Below, in pieces: positions 2,243-7,273 of a DNA stretch of 64,000 nt. Under the pieces are notes generated by a model. That model was not told the DNA's origin, did no database searches, and saw nothing but the letters and a program-made list of their open reading frames with translations. The DNA is from Acidobacteriota bacterium. GTDB lineage: Bacteria; Acidobacteriota; Thermoanaerobaculia; Multivoradales; Multivoraceae. The DNA lies in the NCBI GenBank assembly GCA_003388555.1, contig QQVD01000025.1, positions 1 to 64,000 on the forward strand. The letters are read 5' to 3'. Made by a program: the position numbers and the translations under genes. How positions within the stretch are numbered: the first letter of the stretch is position 1; each line of letters opens with the position of its first letter.

Positions 2243-3334
2243 TCAGCCGGGGATCTCGCAGCTCGGCGCCGGATCGAACGACACCGTGACCGCACGGTTG
2301 CCGTGCGGTCCGGCGCACCAGCTCGGGAACACCGCCGAGTAGAGACCCGAGCCCCCGGCGACCACCCAGAGCAGGTCGTCGGGGTCGCGGAACGCAGCCA
2401 GCCGCGCTGTCTCGTCGTCCCCGCGACCGCGCAGCGCCGGGATCCAGCGCTCCATCTCGGCGCGGGGGAAGGTGGTCAGCTCGCAGATCCTCTCGGCGGC
2501 CGAGCGGCGCTCGAAGCCGGCGAGATCGAGCAGGCGGACGTGATCCGGATTCAGGGCCACCACCGCCGCGCCGCCACGCAGGATGCGGTTGTTCGAGCCC
2601 GGGTGCGCCAGCGCCGCGGCGAGGGTCGCCAGCAGCCTCTCGGCCGCCTGCTCCATCGACTCGTCGTCGCCGGGCGGCAGGAAGATCACCGAGTGCGGCG
2701 CTTCGACGCCGACCAGCGTGACGGCGCTGTCGATCCGCGCGCAGCCGCGCGCCACGTGCAGCGGCGGCCACGGCGAGCCCTCCTCGTCCTCTCCGAGCAC
2801 CGCGGTGAACTTGCCGCCGTGCCCGAGCAGCGCCATGTCCGAGATGCCCGCCCGTCCGCCGCCGAGGTTGATCATCGCCAGGCGCAGAGCGCGCCCGATC
2901 GAGGCGTTGGCGCGCGGTCCAGGGCCGAGCGCGCCGAAGCCGGAAGCGACGCCGCACAGCTCCCGCGCCGGCCCGTTGACCAGGACCAGCGGCGTGGTAC
3001 CGAAGGTCGTCGCCTGCAGCTCGGTGAGATCGAGCCGGGGATCGAGGAGCGCCCGCACGGCGGCGATCACCACCGGCATGTGATCCGGCAGGCAACCCGC
3101 CATCACCGCGCAGGCGCAGACCTTCTCCACCGTCGTCGCACCGTAGGCCGGGCCCATGACACCGAGGTCCAGGTCACCGTCGAGCCCACTCGCCAGCACC
3201 AGCCGGGCGACCCGCTGTTCGGTCGGCGCCAGCACCGGCAGTCCGTCGGTGCAGCCCAGCTGATGCAGGGTCTCGATCGCGGCCGCCTCGTCTTCCGCCT
3301 CGAGCAGCCGGGCCCGGTGCTCCTCTCCGTTCAC
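2243..3334 (-). CDS. DGLPV-motif protein, likely partner of the UGSC selenoprotein
   Basis: A 363-aa protein of a family I know as a frequent neighbour of UGSC (seleno)proteins; its biochemical role is not established. Visible signatures are LGCTDGLPVLAPTEQRV near residues 26-42, a Cys-rich segment KVCACAVMAGCLPDHMPVV at about 71-89, VNGPARELCGVASGFGALGPG, and LRLAMINLGGGRAGISDMA. No signal peptide or membrane segment is seen, so it is probably cytoplasmic. It starts with GTG at 3334, inside a GTGA overlap with the stop of the upstream UGSC gene, so the two are translationally coupled. The conserved Cys residues and the coupling suggest thiol or selenol redox chemistry with the upstream product, but that is inference. 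Confidence 0.8.
   Translation of the reverse strand: MNGEEHRARLLEAEDEAAAIETLHQLGCTDGLPVLAPTEQRVARLVLASGLDGDLDLGVMGPAYGATTVEKVCACAVMAGCLPDHMPVVIAAVRALLDPRLDLTELQATTFGTTPLVLVNGPARELCGVASGFGALGPGPRANASIGRALRLAMINLGGGRAGISDMALLGHGGKFTAVLGEDEEGSPWPPLHVARGCARIDSAVTLVGVEAPHSVIFLPPGDDESMEQAAERLLATLAAALAHPGSNNRILRGGAAVVALNPDHVRLLDLAGFERRSAAERICELTTFPRAEMERWIPALRGRGDDETARLAAFRDPDDLLWVVAGGSGLYSAVFPSWCAGPHGNRAVTVSFDPAPSCEIPG
2288..2310. terminator. perfect hairpin near convergent gene ends
   Basis: GACCGCACGG (2288-2297), a three-base loop TTG, and CCGTGCGGTC (2301-2310) form a perfect 10-bp stem. It lies 73 nt after the TonB-receptor stop and inside the 3' coding end of the convergent minus-strand gene. 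There is no T-run, so if it stops receptor transcription it does so with other factors. It could simply be a codon-driven palindrome. Confidence 0.35.
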
Positions 3335-3894
3335 CGCGCACCCGCCGGATCCGACGCGCCGCCCGTCAGTGCGGCGAGGATGCGCTCGGCGAACTGCTCC
3401 GCCACCCGCCGGTGATTGTCGCGTCCGGTGCCGGCGATCGGGTGCGGCAGAACCACCCGCGGCAGATCCGGCATGCCGGCGGCGGTGGCGACGAAGTCGG
3501 CCTGCGCCCTGAACTCGGAGGTCACCAGCGCGACGGCCGGCAGACCGCGTCGGGCGAGGGCGATTCCGTCACGCACGGTGCCGGTGGTGCAGCTGCCTCA
3601 GTGGCCGTAGGCGGCGACGACTGCCTTGCACTGGCGCGAGATGCCCTCGACCAGCGACTCCGGCGCCGCGATCGAGGCGTTGCCCTTGTCGTAGCGGTGC
3701 AGCACCGCGCCGGGGAGGATCGCCGCGAGCGCCTCACCCACCGCATCGAGGAACGCCACCGAATCGGGGAAGCCGTTCGCCAGCAGCGCGATTGCCACTT
3801 CTTCGCCGACGCCCGCGCGGGGCGGCGTGAGAGCGAGGTCGTAGGGTTGGGGCGGCGTCGCCGGCTCGGCGCGGGGGTCGAGGAAGCGGATCAC
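3331..3894 (-). CDS. UGSC-family selenoprotein with in-frame UGA
   Basis: Read through an in-frame TGA at 3600-3598, this is a single 187-residue protein. Without readthrough it would be two abutting fragments in the same frame (98 codons upstream, 88 downstream). The TGA is followed directly by Gly-Ser-Cys, giving U99-G-S-C102, the defining motif of the UGSC family, whose members carry either Sec or Cys at the first position. Coding character continues smoothly across the TGA (QCKAVVAAYGH-U-GSCTTGTVRDGIALARRGLPAV). The start is GTG at 3894 with no strong Shine-Dalgarno sequence. The gene sits 46 nt after a YeeE/YedE-like gene and overlaps the downstream partner gene by GTGA. The likely role is a selenol/thiol redox reaction; the substrate is unknown. 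The alternative is a nonsense mutation, but the exact UGSC motif argues strongly against that. Confidence 0.85.
3598..3600 (-). other. probable selenocysteine codon (UGA) of the UGSC protein
   Basis: TGA at codon 99, followed by GGC AGC TGC (Gly-Ser-Cys). In bacteria the SECIS hairpin lies within the coding sequence immediately 3' of the UGA. Here the mRNA just downstream can form a small GCAC/GUGC stem (about 10-27 nt after the UGA) closing a 10-nt loop that contains GG. This was judged by eye and not folded. Confidence 0.75.
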
Positions 3895-3940: not shown

Positions 3941-4393
3941 TCACCGCGTCGCGCCGAGACTCCCCCAGGCGAAGCTGCCGACGACCATCGCCAGCACGAA
4001 GACCAGGATGGGCAGGCCGAGGAAGATCCAGCCCGCCAGCGCCGGGCCCGGGCACAGACCGACCAGGCCCCAGCCGACGCCGAACAGCACCGCGCCGAGC
4101 ACCAGCGGACGGTCGACGTCGGTCCGCGTCGGCCAGGAGAGGGCACCGGCGAGCAGCGAAGGCCCGCCGCGGCGGCGCAGCCAGAGGTAGCCCGGAGTGC
4201 TGACCAGCAGCGCTCCACCCATGACGAAGGCGAGCGAGGGATCCCAGTCGCCGAACAGGTCGAGGAAGCCGATCACCTTCGCCGGATCGAGCATGCCGGA
4301 GAGCGCCAGGCCGAAGCCGAAGAGCGCCCCGACTGCCAACGCGGCGGCGACTTCGAGGCCGCCTCGCGACCGCTGAGATCGCTCAGAGGACAT
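3941..4393 (-). CDS. YeeE/YedE-like membrane protein (DUF6691-type half)
   Basis: A 150-aa integral membrane protein with about four hydrophobic segments. The N-terminal [38 protein letters not shown] block and the later [15 protein letters not shown] block are typical of the shorter of two tandem YeeE/YedE-type half proteins. Relatives import thiosulfate or other reduced sulfur species; Cys near residue 117 (GLCPGPAL) is the conserved relay position. The start codon overlaps the 3' end of the preceding half gene by 11 nt, so the two are almost certainly made together and pair in the membrane. Substrate specificity is inferred from the family and from the adjacent persulfide dioxygenase gene. 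Confidence 0.88.
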
Positions 4394-4811
4394 GCCGCAC
4401 CACCAGCACGGTGCCCGCAGCGGCGAGCATGAAGGTCGGCGTGGCGACCAGCGAGCGCCGCGACATGCGCGCCAGCCCGCAGACGCCGTGTCCGCTGGTG
4501 CAGCCGCTGCCCATGCGGGTGCCGATGCCGACGAGCAGACCGCCGAGCACGATCGTCGGCCAGCCGGCGACCAGGGTCTGCTCGGGCGGCGCCCACACCA
4601 ACGCGGCGATCAGGGCTCCGAGCGGCAGCCCGACGAGGAAGGCGGCGCGCCAGGCGCGGTCGCCGGGCGCCGCGGTCTGCAGACCGCCGAGGATGCCGCT
4701 GATCCCGGCGATGCGGCCGAGCAGCGCCATGAGCAGCACTGCGGCGGTGCCGATCAACGCGCCGCCGATCAGGCTCGAGAGGTACGACGACCCGGGGACG
4801 AAGTCGCTCAT
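4383..4811 (-). CDS. YeeE/YedE-type sulfur transporter half protein
   Basis: A 142-aa membrane protein with four predicted helices and the signature [24 protein letters not shown], whose cysteines are the thiosulfate/persulfide relay in YeeE relatives. It overlaps the upstream persulfide dioxygenase-rhodanese gene by ATGA and the downstream DUF6691-type gene by 11 nt, so the three are translationally coupled. The expected role is moving thiosulfate or a related sulfur compound across the inner membrane for the rhodanese and dioxygenase to process. Length and the two-gene layout match the common bacterial pairing next to MBL-rhodanese genes. Confidence 0.9.
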
Positions 4812-6274
4812 GCTTCGGACACCACGCTCGCCTCCGACCGGACGAGGCCCTCGGCGTGCTCGAAGAGATCGTCGACCAGCACCACGTCGAAGCCTTCACG
4901 GGCCAGCTCGGAAGCGGCGAAGCTGGCGCGGCGGCCGCTGGCGCAGTGCACGTAGAGCCGGCGGTCGCGCGGCAGATCGTCGAGCAAGGTCGCCAGGCGC
5001 GTGTAGGCGATCTGCCTCGCACCCGGCAGGTGCGCCTGCTCGAACTCCGACAGGCCCCGCACGTCGAGGATCAGTCCTCTCTCGTCGGCGACCCGCCCGA
5101 CCAGCCCCTCGAAGTCGGTGGTGGCGAGCCCGCTCAGCTGGCCGGCCGCCGCGCCGTGGAGTTCCGCTGGAGTGAGGTATCCACGCACGTCGTCGAGGCC
5201 GATGCGCACCAGCTGCCTCACGGCATGTTCGACGTCGTCTTCATCGGCCACCAGGAAGATCGGCACGTCCTCCTCGACGTAGCTGCCGGCGACGTTGCTC
5301 AGCCCCGAGCCCAGGGGCGCGTGCAGCGACCCCGCCAGGTGGCCGGCGACGAAGTCGCCGCGCCCGCCGCGGGTGTCGAGGATGACGCCTCCCTCGACGT
5401 CGCGCGCCGACAGCAGATCGCCGGGCGCCATCGCCGCAGGGCGGGGCAGCTCGCCGAGCACCTCCGGACCCTCCTTGTTGAGCCGCTTCATGCGCGCGAA
5501 GTAGAGCGGCGGCTCCGGCTGCCCCTCGAGGATGAAGTCGACGAAGGCCTGCTCGCCGTCCTGGCTGTGCCTTATCGCTGCGTTGTATCGGCGCTCGTAC
5601 CCCACCGTGGAGGTGGGCACGGCGCCAAGGGCCTTGCCGCAGGCGCTGCCGGCGCCGTGCGCCGGCCACACCTGCACCGAGTCGTCGAGGGCGAGGAACG
5701 ATGGCAGCGACTCGAAGAGCTGGTGCGCCGCCGGACCCATCGCGCCGGCCTGTCCGGCGGCGCTCTCGAGCAGATCGGGCCGGCCCAGGTCGCCGACGAA
5801 CACGAAGTCGCCGGTGGCCAGCCCGATCGGAGAGTCGGCGCCGCCGCCCCGGTCGGTGACCAGGAAGCTGATGTGCTCCGGCGTGTGACCCGGCGTGTGC
5901 ACCGCCTGGACCTCGATCTTGCCGATCCGGAACGTGTCGCCGCCCTTCAGGAAGACGACGTCGATCGGCCCCGACCCGTCAACGGCCTCGGCGTCACGGC
6001 GCGCCCACTCCGACTTCCACTCCGCGGGGCCTTCGTCGGAGAGGTACGCCCTGACGCCGTGACGACGCGCCAGCTCGCGTGCGCCCGAGAGAAAGTCGGC
6101 GTGGATGTGGGTCTCGGCGACGGCGGTCAGGCGCAGGCCCTCGCGCTCGGCGAGCTCGAGGTAGCGATCGACGTCGCGCTCGGGGTCGATCACCAGCGCC
6201 TCGCCGGTCTTCTGGCAACCGATCAGGTAGGCGTACTGGGCGAGGTCGGGGTCGAAGATCTGTCGAAAGAGCAT
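4808..6274 (-). CDS. persulfide dioxygenase-like MBL fold protein with two rhodanese domains
   Basis: A 488-aa cytoplasmic fusion resembling CstB/ETHE1-type enzymes, which oxidise glutathione or other persulfides to sulfite. The metallo-beta-lactamase domain (about 1-250) shows [22 protein letters not shown] and [15 protein letters not shown]. The usual last His of HxHxDH is Phe, as expected for the mononuclear-iron dioxygenase branch. Two rhodanese domains follow: the first (about 285-365) has no catalytic Cys, the second (about 375-485) keeps [13 protein letters not shown]. The ATG at 6274 is chosen because GGAGAA lies just upstream and the MBL domain begins there; an open frame continues further upstream without similarity. 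First gene of the minus-strand sulfur cluster. Confidence 0.92.
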
Positions 6275-6371
6275 GCCTCGTTCTCCTGTCGGGGTCCGGA
6301 TGCGATCGACCGGATTGTCGCGCACCCGGCAACCGACTCCGGTCGCGGCCGGTCCGGGTGGTCTTCCTGTT

Positions 6372-6465
6372 CTGAGAGACACGACCCGCCCGCCGGGTTC
6401 CCGCTCCGAACGGCACGCACGTCGGAACTGCGGCGGGAACCCGGATCCGCTCGCCTGTCTCTCAG
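6372..6465. repeat. 94-bp nested palindrome between divergent sulfur genes
   Basis: Outer arms CTGAGAGACA (6372-6381) and TGTCTCTCAG (6456-6465) and inner arms CCGGGTTCCCGC (6393-6404) and GCGGGAACCCGG (6433-6444) are perfect inverted repeats. They share one centre (6418.5) and are separated by 11 nt on each side. A smaller TCCGA/TCGGA pair lies in the central loop. The element occupies much of the 210-bp gap between the persulfide dioxygenase and TauE genes and ends 5-6 nt before the TauE Shine-Dalgarno sequence. It could be a regulator site, an RNA hairpin controlling TauE translation, or a small mobile palindrome. Confidence 0.75.
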
Positions 6466-6484
6466 TGCGCGGAGGTGGAAATCG

Positions 6485-7273
6485 ATGGCCTGGCTGGGTG
6501 CGTTTGCGATCGGTCTGAGCCTGGGGCTGCTCGGCTCGGGGGGCTCGATCCTCACCGTTCCGGTGCTCGTCTTCCTGGTTGGTGTCGGGGAGAAGCAGGC
6601 GATCGCCGAGTCGCTCGCGATCGTCGGCCTGATCGCCGCCGGCGGCGCCCTGCCGAGAGTGCTCGGCAAGCAGGTCGCCTGGCGCTCCGTCGTGCTCTTC
6701 GGCGTCCCCGGCATGCTCGGTGCCTACGGCGGAGCCGCGGCGGCGGCCTATGTGCAGGCGGCCTTCCAGCTGGTGCTGTTCGCCGCCATCATGCTCGTCG
6801 CCGCGGTCATGATGGCCCGCCCGGCGGCCTCGGATCCGCGCCTCGCCTCCACCGCGCAGACGGATCCGAGCACCCCTGAGACGCCCCGCGCGATCTGGAA
6901 GATCGTGCTCGACGGCCTGCTCGTCGGCGCGGTGACCGGTCTGGTCGGGGTCGGTGGAGGTTTCCTCATCGTGCCGGCGCTGGTGCTGCTCGGCGGGCTG
7001 TCCATGCACCTGGCGATCGGCACCAGCCTGGTCATCATCGCGATGAAGTCGGCGAGCGGCTTCCTCGAGTACCGCAGCGTGCTCGAGAGTCTCGGGATCG
7101 GCGTCGAGTGGCCGCGCATCCTGCTCTTCGCCGCGGTCGGTTTCGCCGGCTCGCTGCTCGGCGGCCGCGTCGCCGACCGGGTGCCCAGGCAGGCTCTGCG
7201 TCGACTGTTCGCCCTCTTCCTCGTCGTCATGGGCGCCTTCATCGTCTGGCAGTACCTCCCCGACCTGCTCTGA
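6485..7273 (+). CDS. TauE/SafE-family sulfite/anion exporter
   Basis: A 262-aa membrane protein with two homologous halves of about four helices each; each half begins with a glycine-rich loop (GLLGSGGSILTVPVLVF near residue 14 and GLVGVGGGFLIVPALVL near 153), the hallmark of TauE/SafE permeases. It probably exports sulfite or organosulfonates. The ATG at 6485 follows GGAGGTGG at ideal spacing. It is divergent from the persulfide dioxygenase cluster, whose product would generate sulfite, so export of that sulfite is a sensible inferred role. The 5' leader contains the 94-bp palindrome. Confidence 0.9.
   Translation: MAWLGAFAIGLSLGLLGSGGSILTVPVLVFLVGVGEKQAIAESLAIVGLIAAGGALPRVLGKQVAWRSVVLFGVPGMLGAYGGAAAAAYVQAAFQLVLFAAIMLVAAVMMARPAASDPRLASTAQTDPSTPETPRAIWKIVLDGLLVGAVTGLVGVGGGFLIVPALVLLGGLSMHLAIGTSLVIIAMKSASGFLEYRSVLESLGIGVEWPRILLFAAVGFAGSLLGGRVADRVPRQALRRLFALFLVVMGAFIVWQYLPDLL

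Follow-up and report, generated by a model that had tools for sequence, protein, structure and literature searches.

An in-frame UGA as selenocysteine in a UGSC gene of an Acidobacteriota bacterium, and a conserved partner protein with which it may form a reductive enzyme

A minus-strand reading frame in an Acidobacteriota contig is interrupted by a TGA codon, and the codons that follow encode Gly-Ser-Cys. Does this codon break the gene or does it encode selenocysteine (Sec), and, in the latter case, what kind of enzyme would the protein be? The question extends beyond this locus. Selenoproteins of the UGSC family have been known since 2008 and are among the commonest in the sea, with 255 genes in the GOS survey (PMC2398784), and they account for 8.2% of the selenoprotein genes in a second study (PMC9402790), yet the family is without an assigned function. 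The gene described here is a further member of it; what makes it notable is its partner, its fold and its link to the reductase subunits GrdB and PrdB. The window, by which we mean the whole 64,000-nucleotide stretch of DNA that was analyzed, contains the features listed in Table 1.

Table 1. Coordinates of the UGSC locus and of neighboring features in the window
Feature	Position	Strand	Remarks
UGSC selenoprotein CDS	3331..3894	minus	187 aa; GTG start at 3894; TGA stop at 3333-3331; one in-frame TGA (Sec99); PF24696 match
In-frame TGA, Sec99 (U of UGSC)	3600-3598	minus	39/39 aligned Cys homologues have Cys here; Sec relatives almost all have TGA
Cys102 codon (C of UGSC)	3589..3591	minus	putative resolving cysteine
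Candidate SECIS hairpin, CCG.CAC[CGUGC]GUG.CGG	3566..3584	minus	GU-containing apical loop starts 20 nt after UGA; weak
Partner protein CDS	2243..3334	minus	363 aa; family without a name; 4-nt overlap (GTGA) with the UGSC stop
Partner Cys81 codon	3092..3094	minus	in AVMAGC motif
Upstream sulfur genes	3941..6352	minus	MBL-rhodanese 4808-6352; Sulf_transp 4383-4811; DUF6691 3941-4393; 46 nt before UGSC start

A sequence-only reading of the window had proposed one continuous gene split by an apparent stop. Its coordinates, Sec99, Cys102 and the length of the product were all correct when the frame was read again, and to these we add the strand, which it had not given. With the TGA read as a residue, the sequence around position 99 is ...AAYGH-U-GSC-TTG..., and the whole protein matches the Pfam UGSC model (PF24696) over its full length (E 1.1e-44, 153 bits against a gathering score of 25). 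Residues 1-98 alone match the same model at 8.6e-10 and the part downstream of the TGA alone at 7.5e-21, so that both halves and the whole belong to one family. The protein scores 107 bits with the NCBI equivalog model NF041046, under its cut-off of 125, and is consequently a divergent member. The warning that gene callers would split the locus into two unrelated fragments has lost some of its force, since Pfam and NCBI now both have UGSC models. The tetrad reads U99-G-S-C102; CGSC is invariant in a 40-row alignment, and tetrad positions 1 and 4, Sec or Cys and Cys respectively, are conserved together in 109 of 118 distinct sequences. Furthermore, the same gene uses TGA twice, as Sec at residue 99 and as the true stop at its end, which fits context-dependent recoding. 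The assignment of Sec99 and Cys102 is thus well supported, and Cys102 would act as the resolving cysteine.

Reading UGA as Sec requires the host to possess the corresponding machinery. The genome to which the window belongs (6.8 Mb, 74 contigs) has SelA, SelB and SelD, together with a tRNA-Sec (selC) with anticodon TCA; the complete insertion system that had been predicted for the host is therefore present, including the selB and selC on which that prediction depended. A second UGSC gene with TGA lies in the same genome. In a survey of the phylum, UGSC was found in 41 of 396 genomes, nearly every gene having TGA at the same codon and almost always a single one, a recurrence that excludes chance; its presence in independent genomes also rules out a sequencing error. 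The closest Sec relative, L049, comes from another family of the same order and has UGA at the same codon, with 54% identity over the protein. The expectation that homologues would carry Sec or Cys at position 99 was likewise borne out, Cys being found there in all 39 homologues aligned to the window protein. A scan with a Cys pattern found 49 Cys loci in Proteobacteria, Actinomycetota, Bacteroidota, Binatia and archaea, which shows the wide existence of Cys forms and not the ratio of Sec to Cys. The window's own subfamily includes both forms: L049 has Sec, whereas L052 and L053 have Cys. SelA was present in 36 of 37 genomes with Sec-UGSC, the lone exception being 76% complete, versus full-length SelA (over 300 bits) in 12 of 36 genomes with Cys-UGSC (Fisher 2e-9, a value that overstates the independence of the data, as the two sets of genomes differ in taxonomy). 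Full-length SelA was not found in the genomes of L052 and L053, the two Cys relatives nearest to the window protein. Together, this evidence strongly supports the insertion of Sec by SelB at UGA 99.

The SECIS fold anticipated after the UGA is clear in the main Sec clade of the family and weak in the window gene itself. In the main clade a strong hairpin with GU in its loop lies about 13–33 nt after the UGA; its stem has a mean of 7.9 of 9 pairs in Sec genes versus 5.8 in Cys genes, double changes occur at two pairs, and the covariation score was reached by 4 of 500 shuffles. The six pairs of the candidate hairpin are all formed in the window gene and in L049 (6/6), versus 4/6 in L052 and 1/6 in L053. 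Codons +3 to +11 are all identical between the window and L049 (9/9), versus 34/71 at the other positions where the residue is the same (Fisher 0.036 for the stretch +1 to +12). Exact complementarity of the six pairs occurred in 4% of synonymous shuffles (pairing p 0.04); the fold energy was not significant, 74% of such shuffles folding at least as well, and an Rfam search gave no SECIS match. These comparisons are suggestive of a SECIS function for the window hairpin.

Directly downstream, and overlapping the UGSC gene, lies the gene of a partner protein that no Pfam or NCBIfam model matches. With a profile built from this partner, homologues were detected beside UGSC in 48 of the 49 Cys loci, in bacteria and archaea and on either side of the gene, and next to UGSC in 18 of 31 Sec loci; in the other 13, mostly from one genus, no partner adjoins that UGSC copy. 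The one exception among the Cys loci is a Methanobrevibacter CGSC homologue (L092:4737-5255), located beside a lysyl-tRNA synthetase gene. Adjacency often involves a 4-nt overlap. The cysteine of the AVxAGC motif, Cys81 in the window partner, is present in every one of the 71 distinct partner sequences from outside genus g61; within g61, 32/40 have Ala instead. Many partners, such as that of L063, have an N-terminal domain with a CxxC-like motif, which structure comparison identifies as a thioredoxin fold. Among solved structures none is related to the partner core at E 0.001 or better, and sequence searches with UGSC and partner against PDB chains gave no match. We conclude that the UGSC gene is probably translationally coupled to the partner gene and that the two products together probably constitute one enzyme.

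The two proteins are also found as a single chain. In all 36 copies examined in genus g61 (L051, L101-L129, L154, L155), UGSC and partner are fused into one chain of about 600 aa; as judged by eye, most have N-termini resembling signal peptides, and Tat-like motifs are visible in a few. Four genomes of this genus have 16–20 UGA-containing UGSC copies each over the cut-off, which is an exceptionally high number for a single selenoprotein family. A separate case in Actinophytocola (L066:7680-9332) is a fusion with a degenerate active site, CDTG replacing CGSC, near an intact split pair. L056 had been considered as a further fusion and was rejected on inspection.

In an AlphaFold model of UGSC (40 sequences, Cys in place of Sec; pLDDT 92, pTM 0.87), strands alternate with helices, and residue 99 falls after strand 91–97, just ahead of helix 100–115. 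Foldseek ranks flavodiiron proteins, flavodoxins and FMN reductases highest (E about 2e-4, TM about 0.5), and these matches assign a class of fold and not FMN binding. The predicted fold is therefore flavodoxin-like alpha/beta, not thioredoxin-like as published. At the profile level, hhalign aligned UGSC with the Sec domain of GrdB/PrdB, represented by sequences from genomes of the same phylum, over 82 columns (probability 88%, E 3e-6, score 45.5), with the Sec/Cys position and the Cys at +3 both in register. Reversed and column-shuffled control profiles scored at most 21.2 versus 45.5, and the alignment was still found at E 4e-5 with both cysteine positions masked. UGSC searched against PF07355 itself was not listed up to E 10. 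This profile homology indicates that UGSC is a distant equivalent of the GrdB/PrdB Sec domain. The partner profile shows no detectable relation to a GrdE-like pair (probability 3.8%); with a partner not detectably related to the pyruvoyl subunit GrdE/PrdA, the catalytic cycle must differ from that of GrdB/PrdB. The window's genome has, in addition, a gene for a PrdB/GrdB-like C-terminal domain (G000:C9:103626-103991), whose relatives in the phylum read UPxC.

Other explanations of the locus have to be weighed against these data. The frame is interrupted by TGA and the SECIS of the window gene is weak, as they would be if a nonsense mutation had produced a pseudogene, or a sequencing error the TGA, leaving two fragments; we find this scarcely credible, given that independent genomes share this TGA at the corresponding codon, that the protein is conserved on either side of it, that the Sec machinery is complete and that relatives carry Cys at this very codon. 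A functional UGSC protein could, as assumed in the 2008 ocean-survey paper, be a thiol-disulfide oxidoreductase or antioxidant of thioredoxin type with UxxC as its active site; the literature has suggested a Trx-like fold (PMC2398784), and both the UxxC motif and the thioredoxin domain fused to many partners are in keeping with it. However, the confident model is flavodoxin-like, no thioredoxin is found among its 50 best Foldseek matches, and the profile homology is to GrdB/PrdB instead, so that we regard the thioredoxin-type function as unlikely.

The genomic surroundings raise a further alternative. Positions 3941-7273 of the window hold a sulfur group comprising the MBL-rhodanese, two YeeE/YedE-type transporter halves and, on the other strand, TauE. 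Its same-strand genes end just upstream of the UGSC start and are perhaps on the same transcript, and the UGSC-partner pair might accordingly serve in sulfur detoxification with the persulfide-dioxygenase-like MBL-rhodanese and the transporters, acting on a persulfide- or thiosulfate-like substrate. This we consider quite improbable, since none of these sulfur genes was near UGSC in any other fetched locus, for which reason they were also rejected as a conserved context of the family, and since the second UGSC copy of the same genome adjoins thiolase genes. Genes near other UGSC copies encode thiolase, CoA-transferase, acyl-CoA dehydrogenase, AMP-ligase and BKACE and are not uniform, and the neighbors of the Cys loci have no single pathway in common. 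A role in organic-acid catabolism fits the neighbors of these other copies, and the acyl-CoA genes near several of them hint that the substrate may be a small organic acid or the CoA ester of one.

On balance, we favor as probable the explanation that the UGSC selenoprotein and its coupled partner form a reductive bond-cleaving enzyme resembling GrdB/PrdB. SelB would place Sec at UGA 99, where strand 3 of a flavodoxin-like domain is predicted to pass into the helix that follows it. With the substrate held between UGSC and partner, the selenolate of Sec99 may attack an activated carbon (C-N, C-S or C-halogen) or a disulfide-like bond; Cys102 would then resolve the selenium adduct as a Se-S bridge, and a thiol relay, provided by the thioredoxin domain fused to many partners and here by a separate thioredoxin, would regenerate the selenolate. 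C-N bonds are the target of GrdB-like proteins, which have also been linked to the C-F cleavage of fluoroacetate (PMC10838667), and by analogy with them reductive C-X cleavage is our preferred reaction class for UGSC. More tentatively, and with somewhat more doubt than confidence, we propose that UGSC and partner are a widespread two-protein reductive bond-cleaving selenoenzyme, related to proline and glycine reductase but with another kind of subunit binding the substrate; a single genus would have joined the two proteins into one exported chain and amplified it to 16-20 selenoprotein copies per genome. Given its near-obligate partner, its revised fold and its homology with a catalytic domain already known, the "unknown redox protein" becomes a concrete, expressible complex with a testable class of reaction.

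Among the closest known systems are the Sec subunits GrdB/PrdB (PF07355) of the glycine/betaine/sarcosine and D-proline reductases, which share with UGSC a homologous Sec domain and the UxxC motif. Those reductases are multi-protein systems, and glycine reductase has a link to thioredoxin (PMC13188914), a further likeness to the UGSC system. Unlike them, UGSC has no PF07355 match and no detectable GrdE/PrdA-like partner, and many of the lineages that have it are not known to ferment amino acids. Within the UGSC family (PF24696, NF041046; PMC2398784, PMC13188914) the window gene belongs by its full-length match and its U/CGSC tetrad with Sec or Cys in first place; its subfamily is divergent, with the signature GH[UC]GSCT[TA]GTV[RK]D, and lacks the third Cys (UGSCTxC) of many members. 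Finally, the UGSC/Unknown_1 fusion of the GOS survey (PMC2398784), in which UGSC is joined to a conserved domain of unknown function, resembles by its description the fusions of genus g61.
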